Source of the DNA: Ruminococcus sp.
Lineage (GTDB): Bacteria; Bacillota; Clostridia; Oscillospirales; Ruminococcaceae
NCBI GenBank assembly: GCA_017462565.1
Contig: JAFTQW010000026.1
Location: 1 to 64,000, forward strand
Length of the DNA: 64,000 bases
Reading direction: 5' to 3'
Made by a program: the position numbers and the translations under genes. Within the stretch, counting starts at the first letter, position 1. The number at the start of each line of letters is the position of its first letter. Below the pieces are notes generated by a model, which was not told the DNA's origin, made no database searches, and was given only the letters and a program-made list of their open reading frames with translations. Of the stretch, positions 23,304-31,401 are shown one piece after another.

Positions 23304-25877
23304 ATGCTAAAAAAAATCAAAGCTTATTGGGAGAAATATCCGGACAGGACTGCTGCTGTGGTCATATTCTCGATATTCGCTGTTTTAGTTTTTGCAACAA
23401 TGATTATTATGCATAAAGGAATAGTCTGGGGTTCAAATACAGATTGGAAAAGCCAGCATTTTCCGATTCCGGAATATTTCAGAATGCGGTTTTACGAAAC
23501 GCATGATATTTTTCCCGATTTTGCATTACAGCTCGGCAGCGGACAGAATATTTATAATTTCGGTTATTACGGAATCGCAAATCCTCTTTATCTTCCGGCA
23601 TATGCGCTTCCGTTTGTTCCAATGAGCATATATATTGAGGTATTAAGTCTGTCTACAGTTATTATTTCGGCTTTGATGAGCTATGAATTTTTCAAGGGAC
23701 ATTTCAGCCGTAAAATTTCTCTTGTTCTTGCAATAATGTTCTTATGCTCCGGCGGAATTTTTTACCACAGCCATTGTCAGATAATGTTTATGAATTATTT
23801 TCCCTTTCTTCTGGCAATGCTCTTTGTTTGCAGAAAAAAAGACAGCGTAAAAAGTACGTTCCTGATGATGATACTGACTTATTGCATTATGTGCTGTAGT
23901 TTTTATTTCAGTATCGGAAGCTTTGCTGCCGTCGGACTTTATATGGTCTACCTTGAGATTGAGAAAAACGGAAAGTTCAGTCTAAAATCAGCATGGATGT
24001 CCTGCTGGAGAAAAATTGCCGGAGCTGCTTTGGGATGTCTTATTTCAGCGCATTTTTTGCTTCCGACCCTTTTCGCAATACTTTCGGGAAGAGATAAAAC
24101 AAATCAGAAATCCGCTCTCTGGAAGATGCTTATTCCGCAGATAAATTTTACAACTATACTTTACAGCGGATATTCTCTCGGATTTACTGCTGTGGGAGTT
24201 ATCGGAGCAATTTATCTTCTGAAAAACGGCAGGATACAGGATAAATTTCTTTCAGCATCGCTTCTGTGCTGCGCTGTTTTTCCAATGATAAATTATACTC
24301 TCAATGCCGGAATGTATATTGACGGAAAGGTTTTTATTCCGCTTATGCCGGTAATGCTTCTTATATGCGGAGCTTTTTTGTCATCTGAAAAGTTTATAAA
24401 AAAAGATATAAAGATATCGCTGATAATTTATGCAGTGATGATAGGAATATCAATTTTTTATATAACTACTAAGAAATATTTTATTCCGATTTATATATGC
24501 GAATGTGTAATCGTAATTGCATTAATGATCTTTGTTTTGAAGAAGAAAAAAGAATATCTGCTTCAATATTACTGCATTGCCGTGTCATTTATCATCTGCA
24601 TTTCAATAGGATGCGGAGATAATTTTATAGAAAGCTCTCAGATTAAAGATTTTTATAAAAATGAAACTAAAACCGAAGTTGCCAGAGTTCTTGATTCCGA
24701 TACGGAACTTTACCGTTTTTCTGACTGTATTCCGGATGATATTTATGTCAATCGTATTTTCAGTATGGAATATCTTTCAACAAATTCGTATTCGTCTGTT
24801 AACAATCCTTACTTCAGAGAGTTCAGACTGAAGCATTCTCTCAGCGAAAACCGTGTAAGGAACACTGCTGTTCAGAATCAGCCTTATAGTGTTGTTTTTA
24901 ACTCTTTGATGGGGTGTCGTTACAGAATAGCTCCGGCAGATATGAGGATGTATGGAGAGGATATCGTTTCAGATTCAGGAAAATACACTATTTTCAAGAA
25001 TAATTATGCCATGCCTATGGGATATGCTTCTTCTGATCTGATGAGTGAAGAAAAATTTTACGCCCTTTCCGATGAAAATAAGGCGGAGGCTCTTCTTAAA
25101 AATATAATCGTTCCGGAAAAAAATGCAGAGGGGATAATTCCTCATCTTACAGAGACGTTAGAAGCCGATATGACCGGACTTGCAAATGATCCTCATATAA
25201 CGTATGAAAATGAAACGTACACGATCAAAGCGGACGATCAGTTTGAGCTTTCAATCGGACTTGATGAACCTGTTAAGGATAAGCTCATTATTGTTCTTGC
25301 AAAGGCGGATAACAGAATAGGAAACCGTTCGCAGCAAAGAGACGTTTCGCTTACTATAAACGGAGTCAAAAATAAGCTTACTAATCCAAACTGGAAATAT
25401 AATAATAAAAATTATGACTTTACTTATGTTATATCGTCATACGATCCGATTGAAAGACTTGATATGATATTTACAAAGGGATTTTATTCTATCTCGGATA
25501 TAAGAATTTTTACGCTTGAAGCTTCCGTTCTTGATTCAGCTATGGACAATAAGGATGCTCTTGAAATAAACAGAAGCGAATCTCTTGGGGATACGATTTC
25601 CGGAAAGATAAATGTAACTTCTGATGGATGGTTCAATATGTCTCTGCCGTACGACAAGGGATTCAATATAACTGTTGATGGAAACGATACGGAATATTTC
25701 AAAACCAACACAGCATTTATCGGCTTTCCGATATCGTCCGGCGAGCATGAAATCAGGATAGAGTATGAAGCCCCTATGAAAAAAGAAGGAATAGCCGTTT
25801 CAATAACTGCGGCTGCATTGGCAGTCGTATTCTTATTAACTTTGTCGATTAATAAAAATAAACGCAAAGATAACTGA
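23304..25877 (+). CDS. YfhO family membrane protein
   Basis: An 857-residue integral membrane protein with about 12-14 helices in the first 450 residues, starting WEKYPDRTAAVVIFSIFAVLVF, followed by a large extracytoplasmic domain and a final helix near residues 830-850. The family carries a glycosyltransferase-like fold; Bacillus YfhO and Listeria relatives are linked to lipoteichoic-acid or lipid glycosylation. The start is placed at ATG 23304, 6 bases after GGAGG, rather than TTG 23286. It closes the recO-mutS2 gene run. The sugar and acceptor are unknown. Confidence 0.83.
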   Translation: MLKKIKAYWEKYPDRTAAVVIFSIFAVLVFATMIIMHKGIVWGSNTDWKSQHFPIPEYFRMRFYETHDIFPDFALQLGSGQNIYNFGYYGIANPLYLPAYALPFVPMSIYIEVLSLSTVIISALMSYEFFKGHFSRKISLVLAIMFLCSGGIFYHSHCQIMFMNYFPFLLAMLFVCRKKDSVKSTFLMMILTYCIMCCSFYFSIGSFAAVGLYMVYLEIEKNGKFSLKSAWMSCWRKIAGAALGCLISAHFLLPTLFAILSGRDKTNQKSALWKMLIPQINFTTILYSGYSLGFTAVGVIGAIYLLKNGRIQDKFLSASLLCCAVFPMINYTLNAGMYIDGKVFIPLMPVMLLICGAFLSSEKFIKKDIKISLIIYAVMIGISIFYITTKKYFIPIYICECVIVIALMIFVLKKKKEYLLQYYCIAVSFIICISIGCGDNFIESSQIKDFYKNETKTEVARVLDSDTELYRFSDCIPDDIYVNRIFSMEYLSTNSYSSVNNPYFREFRLKHSLSENRVRNTAVQNQPYSVVFNSLMGCRYRIAPADMRMYGEDIVSDSGKYTIFKNNYAMPMGYASSDLMSEEKFYALSDENKAEALLKNIIVPEKNAEGIIPHLTETLEADMTGLANDPHITYENETYTIKADDQFELSIGLDEPVKDKLIIVLAKADNRIGNRSQQRDVSLTINGVKNKLTNPNWKYNNKNYDFTYVISSYDPIERLDMIFTKGFYSISDIRIFTLEASVLDSAMDNKDALEINRSESLGDTISGKINVTSDGWFNMSLPYDKGFNITVDGNDTEYFKTNTAFIGFPISSGEHEIRIEYEAPMKKEGIAVSITAAALAVVFLLTLSINKNKRKDN

Positions 25878-25978
25878 TTTTTATATGAAAATCAATTTTA
25901 CTTTTGGGTATAATTCAAGCGTAATGATTTCATTTAATTTCTTGCTGAAGGAATTATTTCCTTCTGGGCATTCTGTCC

Positions 25979-26082
25979 TAATTATTTCCATTACCTCGTA
26001 AAGAGGTAATGGAAATAATTAATATTGGGTTTCCAAAGGGATGATATCCCTTTGGCAGGGGTTAAAGGAGACAGCGTCCCCT
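25979..26082. repeat. Family A repeat, copy A2
   Basis: Hairpin 1 has perfect 19-base arms (TAATTATTTCCATTACCTC at 25979-25997 with its complement at 26003-26021). Hairpin 2 is CCAAAGGGAT-gat-ATCCCTTTGG (26033-26055), and hairpin 3 is AAGGAGAC-agc-GTCCCCTT (26065-26082, one mismatch). Lies between yfhO and the speD leader. Confidence 0.9.
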
Positions 26083-26136
26083 TACATAATACCGCATAGG
26101 TTAAAATTAATTTCCATGATTTTTTTCAGAAATCTA

Positions 26137-26165
26137 TTGACATAAAAATATTAATATGATAAAAT
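26137..26165 (+). promoter_or_regulatory. Promoter of the structured RNA / speD leader
   Basis: Consensus TTGACA (26137-26142), 17-base spacer, TAAAAT (26160-26165). Predicted RNA start near 26172. No other promoter is evident before speD. Confidence 0.8.
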
Positions 26166-26171
26166 AATATA

Positions 26172-26430
26172 TATTGCAAAAGAAGCTTCGGTTTCAAAGC
26201 AAGATTTTGACCACTCCGTTTATGGAGTCGAGGCCATACGGACAGCCGGGTCAGATGCCGACCGCTGAATTAATTTCAGCTGGCAACTTCTGTTGCCTTA
26301 TTGATTCGATAGTGAAAACTTTTTGTTTGAACGTCGATTAAGTTTTTATAAGTTTTCATCAGCTTGTGAAAGGTCAATAAGAGTAGTAAAGGGTAGTTAT
26401 CTTGCTTATATAGACTCTGAAGCCAATATG
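26172..26430 (+). ncRNA. Large structured RNA ahead of speD, class not identified
   Basis: About 240 nt fold into a closed multi-branch structure that can be drawn by hand. The closing stem is GCTTC (26185) with GAAGC (26419), plus AAGCAAGA (26197-26204) with TCTTGCTT (26400-26407). Inside are ACTCC/GGAGT, GGTC/GACC, GCTGAA/TTCAGC, GGCAAC-ttct-GTTGCC, and CTTATTGA (26297)/TCAATAAG (26374) enclosing GAAAACTT/AAGTTTTC. No ORF is present. TTGACC (26207-26212) can also pair with GGTCAA (26372-26377), competing with the last stem. It could be a polyamine- or SAM-related leader controlling speD, or a stand-alone RNA such as a raiA-type or 6S-type RNA; I cannot decide by eye. Confidence 0.65.
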
Positions 26431-26451
26431 AAGTTTTTTTGGTATTTCATG

Positions 26452-26491
26452 CGCATACAGGCTGTATAAGTCTGTATGCGTTTTTGTTTTT
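26452..26491 (+). terminator. Intrinsic terminator between the structured RNA and speD
   Basis: CGCATACAG (26452-26460) pairs perfectly with CTGTATGCG (26472-26480), followed by TTTTTGTTTTT. It ends about 30 bases before the speD start. Confidence 0.88.
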
Positions 26492-26522
26492 AATTTGAAT
26501 TTATGTTTTTGAGGTGTGTTGT

Positions 26523-27305
26523 ATGGAAAATAAGCTGAAGCTTTACGGCTTTAATAATCTGACAAAATCATTAAGCTTTAATATATATGACGTATGCTAT
26601 GCCAGAACTCCGAAGGCTCAGCTGGATTATATTGCCTATGTTGACGAGGTTTATAACTCCGAGCGTATTACCGATATTATGACTCACCTTACGGAAATGA
26701 TAGGTGCGCAGGTTTTAAGCATATCACGTCAGGACTACGATCCGCAGGGAGCTTCGGCAACGTTTCTTATTGCTGACGATACAATGATACCTGCCGGCGG
26801 AAGCGAAACAGTGGCTCATCTTGATAAAAGCCACGTTACGGTTCATACCTATCCTGAATATCATCCCGATACTAATATCGCGACCTTTCGTGTGGATATA
26901 GACGTTGCGACCTGCGGAAAAATTACTCCTCTTACGGCTCTTGATTACCTGATAGGAAGCTTCGATTCCGATATTATTACCATGGATTACCGTGTAAGAG
27001 GATTTACACGTGATCTTGACGGTAAAAAGCTTTTTATAGATCATGATATCACGTCGATACAGAATTACGTTGATGAGACTATTCTCGATAAATACGACGC
27101 TGTTGATATCAATGTTTATCAGGCAAATATGTTCCATACAAAAATGCTTATAAAGGAGATCGAGCTTCAGAATTATCTTTTCAACACCGATGTCCGTGAA
27201 CTTTCTCCGAGGAGCAGACTTGATATCACAAACGCTTTAAGGAAAGAAATGATTGAAATTTTCAGCGGAAGGAATGTGTTCGAAAATGGCTCTTTCACAG
27301 ATTAA
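26523..27305 (+). CDS. speD: S-adenosylmethionine decarboxylase proenzyme
   Basis: A 260-residue pyruvoyl enzyme of the long (E. coli-like) SpeD class that makes decarboxylated SAM, the aminopropyl donor for spermidine. The self-cleavage site is seen as [14 protein letters not shown], with K102-S103 the predicted cut and S103 becoming the pyruvoyl group. ATG 26523 lies 6 bases after GAGGTG; GTG 26514 is inside that site. It overlaps the following decarboxylase by 20 bases. Transcription probably must pass the terminator just upstream. Confidence 0.95.
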
Positions 27306-28731
27306 TGCGCCTATTTATGAGGCTTTAAGAAGATTTCGCCGTATGCGTGTAGTTCCGTTCGATGTTCCGGGGCATAAGCGTGGCAGAGGAAACATGGAGC
27401 TTACGGAATTTCTCGGCGAGGAATGCATGAGCGTTGATGTTAATTCAATGAAACCTCTTGATAATCTTTGTCATCCTGTTTCAGTCATAAAGGATGCGGA
27501 AACTCTTGCGGCAGAAGCTTTCGGTGCGGCAAACGCTTTTTTCATGGTTGGGGGAACGACATCTGCCGTTCAGAGCATGATAATGTATGCCTGTAAAGGC
27601 GGCGATAAGATAATTATGCCGAGAAACGTTCATCGAAGCGCAATAAACGCTCTTATATTATGCGATGCGGTACCGGTTTATGTTGATCCGGATGTGAATA
27701 ACACGCTTGGAATAGCTCTTGGAATGTCGGTTTCACAAGTCGAGAAGGCTATCAGAGAAAATCCCGACGCTAAGGCGATAATGGTAAATAATCCGACGTA
27801 TTACGGAATCTGCTCCGATTTAAAAAAAATAACTGAGCTTGCCCATAAGCATAATATGCTGGTTCTGGTGGACGAGGCTCATGGAACGCATTTTTATTTC
27901 GGAGAAAATTTCCCTGTAACGGCTATGGCTGCCGGAGCAGATATTGCTTCGGTCAGTATGCATAAATCAGGGGGAAGCCTTACTCAGAGTTCATTTTTGC
28001 TTATGGGAGAAAAAATAAATTCCGACTATATGCGTCAGGTAGTCAATCTTACTCAGACAACAAGCGCATCGTATCTTTTGCTTTCAAGCCTTGATATTTC
28101 CAGAAAAAGACTTGCTCTCAGCGGACGTGAGATTTTTGAAAAAACTGTTGAAATGGCTGAATATGCACGTTCCGAGATAAATTCAATAGGAGGATATTAC
28201 GCTTATTCCAAAGAGCTTATCAACGGCGACAGCGTTTACGATTTTGACGTTTCAAAGCTCAGCGTTTTCACTCTTCCGATAGGACTTGCCGGAATCGAGG
28301 TTTATGATCTGCTTCGTGACGAGTACGACATACAGATAGAATTCGGAGATATAGGAAATATTCTCGCATATATTTCCGTAGGTGACAGAAATCGGGATAT
28401 CGAGCGTCTTATCAGCGCAATGTCGGAAATAAAGCGGCGTTTCGGCAAATCTGAAACAGGATTGCTCACGCATGAGTATATCAATCCTATAGTTGCCGAA
28501 ACTCCGAGAAAAGCCTTTTACGGCGATAAAAAATCGCTTCCGCTCGATGAATCAGCAGGATATATATGCAGCGAATTTGTAATGTGTTATCCTCCGGGAA
28601 TACCGATACTTGCTCCGGGAGAGCTTATAACGGACGAGATAATACAGTACATAAAATATGCGAAAGAAAAAGGCTGCTCAATGACCGGTACGGAAGATAT
28701 AAACATTGAACATCTCAACGTTCTTATATGA
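27286..28731 (+). CDS. speA: Orn/Lys/Arg decarboxylase, probably biosynthetic arginine decarboxylase
   Basis: A 481-residue PLP enzyme of the Firmicute aspartate-aminotransferase-fold decarboxylases (Bacillus SpeA type). Visible: PGHKRGRG N-terminal motif, [12 protein letters not shown] for cofactor phosphate, [12 protein letters not shown] with the PLP aspartate, and the Schiff-base lysine in [15 protein letters not shown]. Arginine as substrate is inferred from the agmatinase (speB) in the same locus; lysine or ornithine cannot be excluded. ATG 27286 is favoured (GGAAGGA upstream); ATG 27274 is an alternative. Confidence 0.88.
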
Positions 28732-29708: not shown

Positions 29709-30560
29709 ATGGAACTATGGTTTACAGAGCGACACACACCTAATGTTAAATTTTCAATAAAGGTCGATCGTCAGCTTTACAGCGGAAACAGCGAGTTTCA
29801 GAGGATAGATATTTTCGATTCAAAGGAATTTGGACGTTTCCTCACGCTTGACGGTTACATGATGCTTACGGAAAAGGACGAATTTATCTACCATGAAATG
29901 ATAACTCATGTTCCTATGGCAGTTCATCTGAATCCGAAAAATATTCTCGTTATCGGAGCAGGCGACGGAGGAGTAGTACGTGAACTGACCAGATACAGCT
30001 CTGTTGAAAACATTGATCTTGTGGAGATTGACGAGCTTGTGGTAGAGGTTAGCAAGAAATATCTGACGACTACAGCTTGCCGTTTTGACGATCCGAGAGT
30101 TCATATTTTTTATGAGGACGGAGTGAAGTTCATACGCCGCTGTGAGGACAAATATGACGTTATAATTGTCGATTCTACTGATCCATTTGGTCCGGGAGAA
30201 GGGCTTTTCACAAAGGAATTCTACGGAAGCTGCTTCAAGGCTCTTCATGAGGACGGAATCATGGTCAATCAGCATGAAAGTCCGTTTTACGACGAGGATG
30301 CGGCGGCAATGCAGCGTTCTCATAAAAGAATCGTTGAAAGCTTCCCGATAAGCAAGGTTTATCAGGCTCATATCCCGACTTATCCTTCGGGACATTGGCT
30401 TTTCGGATTCGCTTCAAAAAAATATCATCCCGTGAACGATTTCAACGGTGTTAAGTGGAGTATGCAGGAGATACGCACACGCTATTACAACCCGCGACTT
30501 CATGCAGGAGCTTTTGCCCTGCCAAATTATGTAGAGGAGCTGCTTAAAGATGTTGAATAA
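29709..30560 (+). CDS. speE: Spermidine synthase
   Basis: A 283-residue aminopropyltransferase that transfers the aminopropyl group of decarboxylated SAM to putrescine, releasing methylthioadenosine. Motifs: GAGDGGVVRELTRY for the SAM-like cofactor, VEIDELVVEVSKKYL, and the catalytic DSTDPFGPGEGLF. Small N-terminal beta domain and Rossmann domain of normal size. RBS AAGGAGG. Its last 11 bases overlap speB. Confidence 0.95.
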   Translation: MELWFTERHTPNVKFSIKVDRQLYSGNSEFQRIDIFDSKEFGRFLTLDGYMMLTEKDEFIYHEMITHVPMAVHLNPKNILVIGAGDGGVVRELTRYSSVENIDLVEIDELVVEVSKKYLTTTACRFDDPRVHIFYEDGVKFIRRCEDKYDVIIVDSTDPFGPGEGLFTKEFYGSCFKALHEDGIMVNQHESPFYDEDAAAMQRSHKRIVESFPISKVYQAHIPTYPSGHWLFGFASKKYHPVNDFNGVKWSMQEIRTRYYNPRLHAGAFALPNYVEELLKDVE

Positions 30561-31401
30561 AAATATTCAGACCTTTATTGCCTGCGACAGCGAATATGAC
30601 GATGCAAAAATCGTTCTTTTCGGTGCGGGCTTTGACGGAACAACCAGCTTTCGTCCCGGAACAAGATTTGCTCCGGCAGCAATAAGAAACGAAAGTTTCG
30701 GAATCGAGACATATTCGCCTTATCAGGATAAGGATATGCTCGACTACAGTTACTTCGACAGCGGAGATTTAGAGCTTCCTTTCGGCAGTACGAACAGAGC
30801 TGTCGCCGATATCGCCATGAGAGCGGACATGATTCTTACAGACGGAAAAATTCCGTTTATGATAGGCGGAGAGCATCTTGTAACTCTCGGTTCTGTTATG
30901 GCTGCAACGGAGAAATTCGATGAACTTTATATTGTTCATTTTGACGCTCATGCCGATCTGCGTGACGATTATCTTGGTCAAAAGCTCTCTCATGCCTGCG
31001 TTCTGAGAAGATGTCACGAGCTTGTGGGGGACGGTCATATTTTCCAGTTCGGAATAAGAAGCGGCGACCGTGAGGAATTTCTTTTTGCAAACGAACATAC
31101 TGAGATGCACAAATTTAATTTTGACGGACTTGAGGAGACTGTGGAAAAACTCAAGGGAAAAAACGTCTATCTTACGGTAGATTTGGATGTTCTCGATCCG
31201 TCGATTTTTCCCGGAACAGGTACTCCGGAAGCAGGCGGAGTCTCCTTTGACGAGCTGAGACGTGCTTTGACGCTTGTTTGCAATAAGCTGAATGTAGTTG
31301 CCTGCGATGTGAATGAGCTTAGTCCCGTTTACGACCAGAGCGGAGTTTCGACAGCCGTTGCCTGCAAGATAATAAGGGAAATGCTTCTGGCGATGTCTTG
31401 A
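30550..31401 (+). CDS. speB: Agmatinase
   Basis: A 283-residue ureohydrolase that splits agmatine into putrescine and urea using two Mn ions. Ligand motifs: GGEHLVTLG (His), FDAHADLRDDY (three Asp and His) and TVDLDVLDPSIFPGTGTPEAGG (two Asp). Agmatinase rather than arginase is inferred from the spe genes around it. Translationally coupled to speE by overlap. Confidence 0.93.
   Translation: MLNKNIQTFIACDSEYDDAKIVLFGAGFDGTTSFRPGTRFAPAAIRNESFGIETYSPYQDKDMLDYSYFDSGDLELPFGSTNRAVADIAMRADMILTDGKIPFMIGGEHLVTLGSVMAATEKFDELYIVHFDAHADLRDDYLGQKLSHACVLRRCHELVGDGHIFQFGIRSGDREEFLFANEHTEMHKFNFDGLEETVEKLKGKNVYLTVDLDVLDPSIFPGTGTPEAGGVSFDELRRALTLVCNKLNVVACDVNELSPVYDQSGVSTAVACKIIREMLLAMS

Follow-up and report, generated by a model that had tools for sequence, protein, structure and literature searches.

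RF02440, a catalogued small RNA upstream of polyamine genes, is most likely a polyamine-sensing transcriptional switch

The RF02440 RNA that lies directly upstream of speD in the Ruminococcus sp. window studied here, a term that denotes the whole 64-kb stretch of DNA analysed, is probably a cis-acting riboswitch that terminates transcription to turn genes OFF in response to a polyamine end product, most likely spermidine (probability about 0.7). It belongs to a family already catalogued in Rfam, which is reinterpreted here as most likely a transcriptional switch that senses a polyamine. Computation directly showed the RNA and its terminator, how far it is conserved and which genes surround it, as well as the covariation of helices P1 and P3 and that between one aptamer strand and the terminator.

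The leader RNA upstream of speD

The initial annotation proposed that a promoter, a folded RNA of about 240 nt and an intrinsic terminator stand in this order before speD, and all were located as claimed. The features of the leader and of the polyamine genes that follow it are listed below.

26137..26165, + strand: sigma-70-type promoter (TTGACA, 17 nt, TG-TAAAAT; 11/12 matches)
26185..26204, + strand: 5' strand of P1 (GCTTC at 26185-26189, AAGCAAGA at 26197-26204), from fold and covariation
26208..26261, + strand: RF02440 match with P2, P3, a CGG/CCG mini-hairpin and GCCGA (71.1 bits)
26213..26228, + strand: P3 hairpin ACTCC/GGAGT, with 5/5 pairs changed on both sides among 78 sequences
26264..26297, + strand: hairpin GCTGAA/TTCAGC followed by P4, GGCAAC/GTTGCC, from the fold and, for the P4 segment, relatives
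26298..26380, + strand: P5 (TTATTGA at 26298-26304, TCAATAA at 26374-26380) and the part it encloses; 98.9% of cells paired, nearly invariant
26344..26371, + strand: P7 helix (26344-26354 with 26361-26371); 99.1% of cells paired in 78 sequences, also in the free fold
26360..26368, + strand: aptamer strand CAGCUUGUG, proposed partner of the terminator arm, from duplex and family covariation
26400..26423, + strand: 3' strand of P1 (TCTTGCTT at 26400-26407, GAAGC at 26419-26423), from fold and covariation
26451..26489, + strand: intrinsic terminator, a 13-bp stem (26451-26481) and then a T tract
26456..26464, + strand: UACAGGCUG, part of the terminator 5' arm and loop and proposed antiterminator partner, from duplex and family covariation
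26523..27305, + strand: speD, S-adenosylmethionine decarboxylase, ATG at 26523 (TIGR03331, 395.5 bits, cut-off 255.8)
27286..28731, + strand: Orn/Lys/Arg decarboxylase (PF01276, 251.9 bits)
29709..30560, + strand: speE, spermidine synthase (TIGR00417, 340.3 bits)
30550..31401, + strand: speB, agmatinase (TIGR01230, 279.9 bits)

Two other ORFs separate the Orn/Lys/Arg decarboxylase gene from speE. At 25975-26100 lies a dispersed repeat in intergenic DNA, about 110 bp long and with an inverted repeat on its 5' side. At least 55 matching pieces occur in the same genome, some of them one place on both strands, and at least four further copies lie within the window.

The promoter is the top of seven promoter-like sites in 25500-27800. 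Shuffled versions of this region average 6.8 such sites, so the site by itself is weak evidence. Relatives of the RNA have a promoter-like site directly 5' in 112 of 138 loci, as against 30 of 138 mononucleotide-shuffled sequences. Between 26165 and speD the + strand has no further promoter-like site at the same threshold, in agreement with the earlier remark that no other speD promoter is evident.

The sequence from 26137 to 26523 folds with an energy of -113.8 kcal/mol (z -5.56), which none of 100 shuffles equals. The minimum-energy fold is closed by the two stems originally proposed, GCTTC/GAAGC and AAGCAAGA/TCTTGCTT, which together form P1. The GCTGAA/TTCAGC hairpin is present in a minority of relatives, and many relatives have P6 and P8 hairpins that are absent or altered in the window, as they also are in locus L144.

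Family membership and gene context

The core of the leader aligns end to end to the model of RF02440 (SpF59_sRNA, or ldcC RNA) and scores well above the gathering score of 37.2 bits. This is the sole Rfam match across the window, and the genome carries the RNA in one copy. Comparison with Rfam covariance models had been suggested as a way to recognize a housekeeping RNA, raiA, 6S or a SAM riboswitch. A permissive search of 26100-26530 (E up to 1) returned nothing beyond RF02440. No SAM family matched, and neither did raiA, 6S, T-box, ribosomal leader or other catalogued RNA models. The housekeeping RNA, SAM switch, raiA and 6S identities were rejected on these grounds.

The Rfam model is 54 nt long and is typed 'Gene; sRNA', whereas the conserved RNA described here spans about 250 nt. 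The closing stem, the coupled terminator and the downstream polyamine genes all lie beyond the model. The label 'ldcC RNA' shows that this RNA had been noticed earlier, and no priority is claimed.

Under strict filters, and with the window's own genome counted, RF02440 occurs in 29 of 119 genomes of the same GTDB family and in 18 of 398 genomes of the phylum. A core-pattern scan of named genomes, and thus a sample selected by that pattern, yielded at least 118 loci. They include Faecalibacterium, Blautia, Acidaminococcus and Phascolarctobacterium, and also Bacillus, Neobacillus, Paenibacillus, Kurthia and Lactococcus. Also in the sample are one MAG record labelled Synergistaceae (L118) and one labelled Spirochaetes (L082), for which Rfam scores of 58 and 54 bits, respectively, confirm the match. 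Three pattern matches inside protein genes (L052, L076, L117) were left out of the terminator, pairing and context counts, and five duplicates were removed from the last; a first tally of gene context still assigns L117 to potA.

Among the matches listed, 150 non-identical loci have enough downstream DNA to be judged, and in 148 of them a polyamine gene lies on the same strand no more than 900 nt downstream. The genes counted are speD, Orn/Lys/Arg decarboxylase, a potA-like importer and a carboxynorspermidine-synthase-like dehydrogenase, and three added speD loci (L026, L160, L162) are included. Sorted by the first recognised gene within 900 nt downstream, 153 non-identical loci comprise 52 with speD, 47 with the decarboxylase, 24 with potA and 22 with the dehydrogenase; six loci have too little downstream DNA, and two precede a C39-peptidase-like lipoprotein. 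Gene labels rest on tblastn hits, within 900 nt, to six reference proteins; for each kind, a single protein was also compared with family libraries. The dehydrogenase from L046 scores 418 bits, below the NCBIfam carboxynorspermidine synthase cut-off of 800. Six retained potA labels have 51-58% identity.

Some arrangements depart from the simplest case. In L099 (1557-1892), an ORF for a P-II-like nitrogen regulator is first after the RNA and potA is second. In two Lactococcus loci (L112, L123) the RNA is directly before potA, which is followed by two permease-like ORFs; the gene on the other side of the RNA is one that we take to be murB-like. The window's own genome has a potA homolog above the family cut-off (L179, contig C50) yet only the single RNA copy, and this importer seems to have no RF02440 leader.

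Homologs located away from polyamine genes had been named as observations that would speak against a speD-linked switch. Only two of the 150 loci are of this type, and both are divergent (L028, 1501-1575; L029, 1501-1554). The L029 RNA falls under the gathering score, and its P2 differs but is self-complementary (GACUUC/GAAGUC). These RNAs are perhaps a variant with another ligand. A regulon around the C39-like lipoprotein was considered and rejected, as the RNA core is upstream in only two of eight genomes with a homolog.

Conserved structure, terminator and candidate antiterminator

Pairing was assessed with an alignment of 78 hand-picked aptamers out of 107. Across these sequences, 97.9% of cells in 35 core pairs are standard, with 134 double-change cells (shuffles give 40) and a covariation score of 0.178 (0.091 for shuffles). 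P3 accounts for 99 of the 134 double changes and the first P2 pair for 32. The other P2 pairs, together with P5 and P7, hardly vary, which speaks neither for nor against these helices; P7 has no double change in the 78 sequences. P1 was misaligned by MAFFT and was hence tested by duplex energy. Its strands pair at -21.8 kcal/mol with their own partners and at -17.1 kcal/mol when permuted within classes (z -15.4; 0/2000). Because of the same misalignment, a helix reported by RNAalifold in columns 287-314 is likely spurious, and it was omitted from the pair test.

Pairing tests on loci with terminators kept 123 of 140 after redundancy was removed. The P4 segment is present in 113 of these 123 loci, in 106 distinct sequences with a mean z of -4.47, and a segment containing P6 and P8 was found in 91 (mean z -1.39, slightly better than shuffles). 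A conserved, covarying structure in the 5' leader, as expected of a riboswitch, is present.

The initial annotation looked for a switch in a pairing of TTGACC (26207-26212) with GGTCAA (26372-26377). The letters are there, and the pairing is not conserved: 81.6% of cells are paired, as against 81.7% when shuffled, no double change occurs in 78 sequences, and two of the six pairs are broken in about half of them. The pairing with which it would compete, CTTATTGA/TCAATAAG, is conserved, with 98.9% of cells paired and almost no variation. A riboswitch-type alternative pairing would lie in a different place, between an aptamer strand and the terminator.

A strict scan finds terminators in 103 of 134 relatives. 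When bulges are allowed, a terminator-like hairpin is found in 140 of 144, a scan that 12 of 36 dinucleotide shuffles also pass. The four exceptions (L073, L082, L096, L119) may act on translation. Two of them, L073 and L096, are speD leaders. In L073, CAAGUUA lies shortly before the ribosome-binding site and is complementary to the aptamer strand UAACUUG, so that this leader is perhaps a translational version.

Complementarity links the 5' arm of the terminator to the aptamer strand around CUUGUG. Arms and strands from the same locus pair at -12.62 kcal/mol, as against -11.03 kcal/mol (sd 0.19; 0/2000) when permuted within classes, a procedure that leaves relatedness in, so its z is not to be read as a probability. 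Two control pairings in this test gave z values of 0.8 and -1.5. The gain for own pairs is present in the speD, potA and decarboxylase classes; the dehydrogenase class of seven loci has none (-15.01 own, -15.03 swapped). Upstream, the arm pairs best with the CUUGUG strand in 61 of 88 loci and, within 12 nt, in 82 of the larger non-redundant set of 123, where another segment is better in 41. A duplex of -8 kcal/mol or lower that uses at least four of the six CUUGUG letters can form in 113 of 123 loci, a count without its own control.

In the window, UACAGGCUG (26456-26464) and CAGCUUGUG (26360-26368) can form a 9-bp duplex of -12.0 kcal/mol. The corresponding arm and strand are GCAGGUGAUG and CAUCGCUUGU in L023, and GCAGAUGAUGU and ACAUCAUCUUGU in L142. 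Since the CUUGUG strand is the 3' side of P7 in the aptamer, P7 and the candidate antiterminator are mutually exclusive. The antiterminator and the terminator have the 5' arm in common.

Exclusivity between the expression platform and part of the aptamer is thus indicated by complementarity and covariation, and the nested energy model is unsupportive in the window. For a transcript cut at 26466, this model gives -88.1 kcal/mol with P7 and -75.5 kcal/mol with the antiterminator, favouring P7 by about 12.6 kcal/mol. However, the antiterminator crosses P1 and P5, and a nested model cannot combine it with them, so the energies are a caution and no refutation. A forced-terminator energy of -69.2 was left unused; it conflicts with the free fold of -107.7, which has nearly the same pairs, and was taken as a constraint artefact.

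A further pairing, between the 5' leader and the 3' arm of the terminator, gives a weak family-wide signal (z -3.1; 2/2000) and is kept as a lead. At some speD loci the same 5' leader extends P1 rather than pairing with the arm. In speD-class leaders such as L014, L018 and L136, the sequence CAUGUGAUAUGAG just 3' of the likely start site is the one able to extend P1 or to pair with that 3' arm.

Proposed mechanism and alternatives

The sensor would be the RNA of about 250 nt closed by P1. Ligand binding would stabilise the folded RNA and keep the strand at 26361-26371 in P7. The terminator at 26451-26481 could then form, leaving speD and the later polyamine genes untranscribed from the leader promoter. 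When ligand is absent, the 3' strand of P7 would pair with the terminator 5' arm (26360-26368 with 26456-26464), the terminator would fail and RNA polymerase would read through. In this way a polyamine would halt its own synthesis or import.

We infer that the RNA senses a ligand, that this ligand is a polyamine and that control is OFF. The steps catalysed by speD and by the decarboxylases have different precursors, decarboxylated SAM plays no part in the carboxynorspermidine-type route, and the Pot system brings in the polyamine product. A polyamine end product is the only compound common to the speD route, the carboxynorspermidine-type route and import. Of the three ligands suggested initially (SAM, a polyamine or arginine), a polyamine therefore fits best.

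Control in the opposite sense is unlikely. Here the ligand would stabilise a pseudoknot between strand and terminator, block the terminator and turn the genes ON. Such a bound state is compatible with a pairing that crosses P1 and P5, and the energy model gives termination as the default; the product would, however, induce the genes for both its synthesis and its import, which is unusual logic. It is similarly improbable that the RNA is a trans-acting sRNA that merely lies beside polyamine genes, as the initial annotation had also considered. The RNA does have its own promoter and terminator, and its Rfam type is 'Gene; sRNA', although a terminated riboswitch transcript would equally be detected as an sRNA. 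The same-strand polyamine genes close downstream at nearly every locus disfavour an independent RNA, as do the terminator arm that covaries with the aptamer and the rarity of promoter-like sites between RNA and gene (only 13 of 138 loci).

Least likely of these readings is that a protein, or the translation of a leader peptide, controls the leader in place of direct ligand binding. The RNA is large for a sensor, and the window leader contains open frames, the longest of 55 codons from a TTG at 26174. These frames overlap covarying stems, however, and no ribosomal-leader or T-box model in Rfam matches. The preferred reading, a switch linked to speD as initially proposed, is supported by the conserved RNA, the polyamine gene context and the covariation between arm and strand.

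In purine-type transcriptional OFF riboswitches, a P1 strand competes for the 5' arm of the terminator. RF02440 RNAs likewise set an aptamer strand against this arm, but the strand belongs to the internal helix P7 rather than to P1, so that the antiterminator crosses P1.

The available portion of one report describes a rare spermidine riboswitch, a SAM-I variant, that precedes speE, speB, speD and ldcC genes and acts as an OFF switch through an intrinsic terminator (PMC10853860). Placement before polyamine genes and the OFF terminator proposed here are alike, as far as that portion goes; its aptamer has the SAM-I fold, unlike the RNA described here, which matches no SAM family (PMC10853860). 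RNA motifs named potE, odc1 and speF have been proposed near polyamine genes, according to the accessible parts of two other papers (PMC8632094, PMC11477304). They are described there as other motifs, in other bacteria or contexts (PMC8632094, PMC11477304). The comparison of sequences made here extends to the Rfam scan, in which RF02440 was the only match. A literature search, with subscription papers and preprints mostly outside its scope, found no report of the RF02440 RNA as a switch. 'SpF59' in the accessible text of PMC12211059 refers to unrelated strain names, PMC8946176 appears from its available part to be an unrelated review, and the portions of PMC11109978 and PMC13273304 at hand contain none of the sought terms.

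The available text of PMC10853860 regards the earlier case for polyamine riboswitches as unconvincing and presents a single rare class. On balance, RF02440 appears to be a widespread polyamine riboswitch class filed as an sRNA. It would be unrelated to SAM-I variants, occur mainly in Bacillota and in the single MAGs labelled Synergistaceae and Spirochaetes, and control two synthesis routes as well as import. If this reading is true, the expression platform is precise enough for a test by changing one helix. If a polyamine is sensed, RF02440 would commonly regulate both the synthesis and the uptake of polyamines among Bacillota, with gut Ruminococcaceae and Lactococcus as examples.
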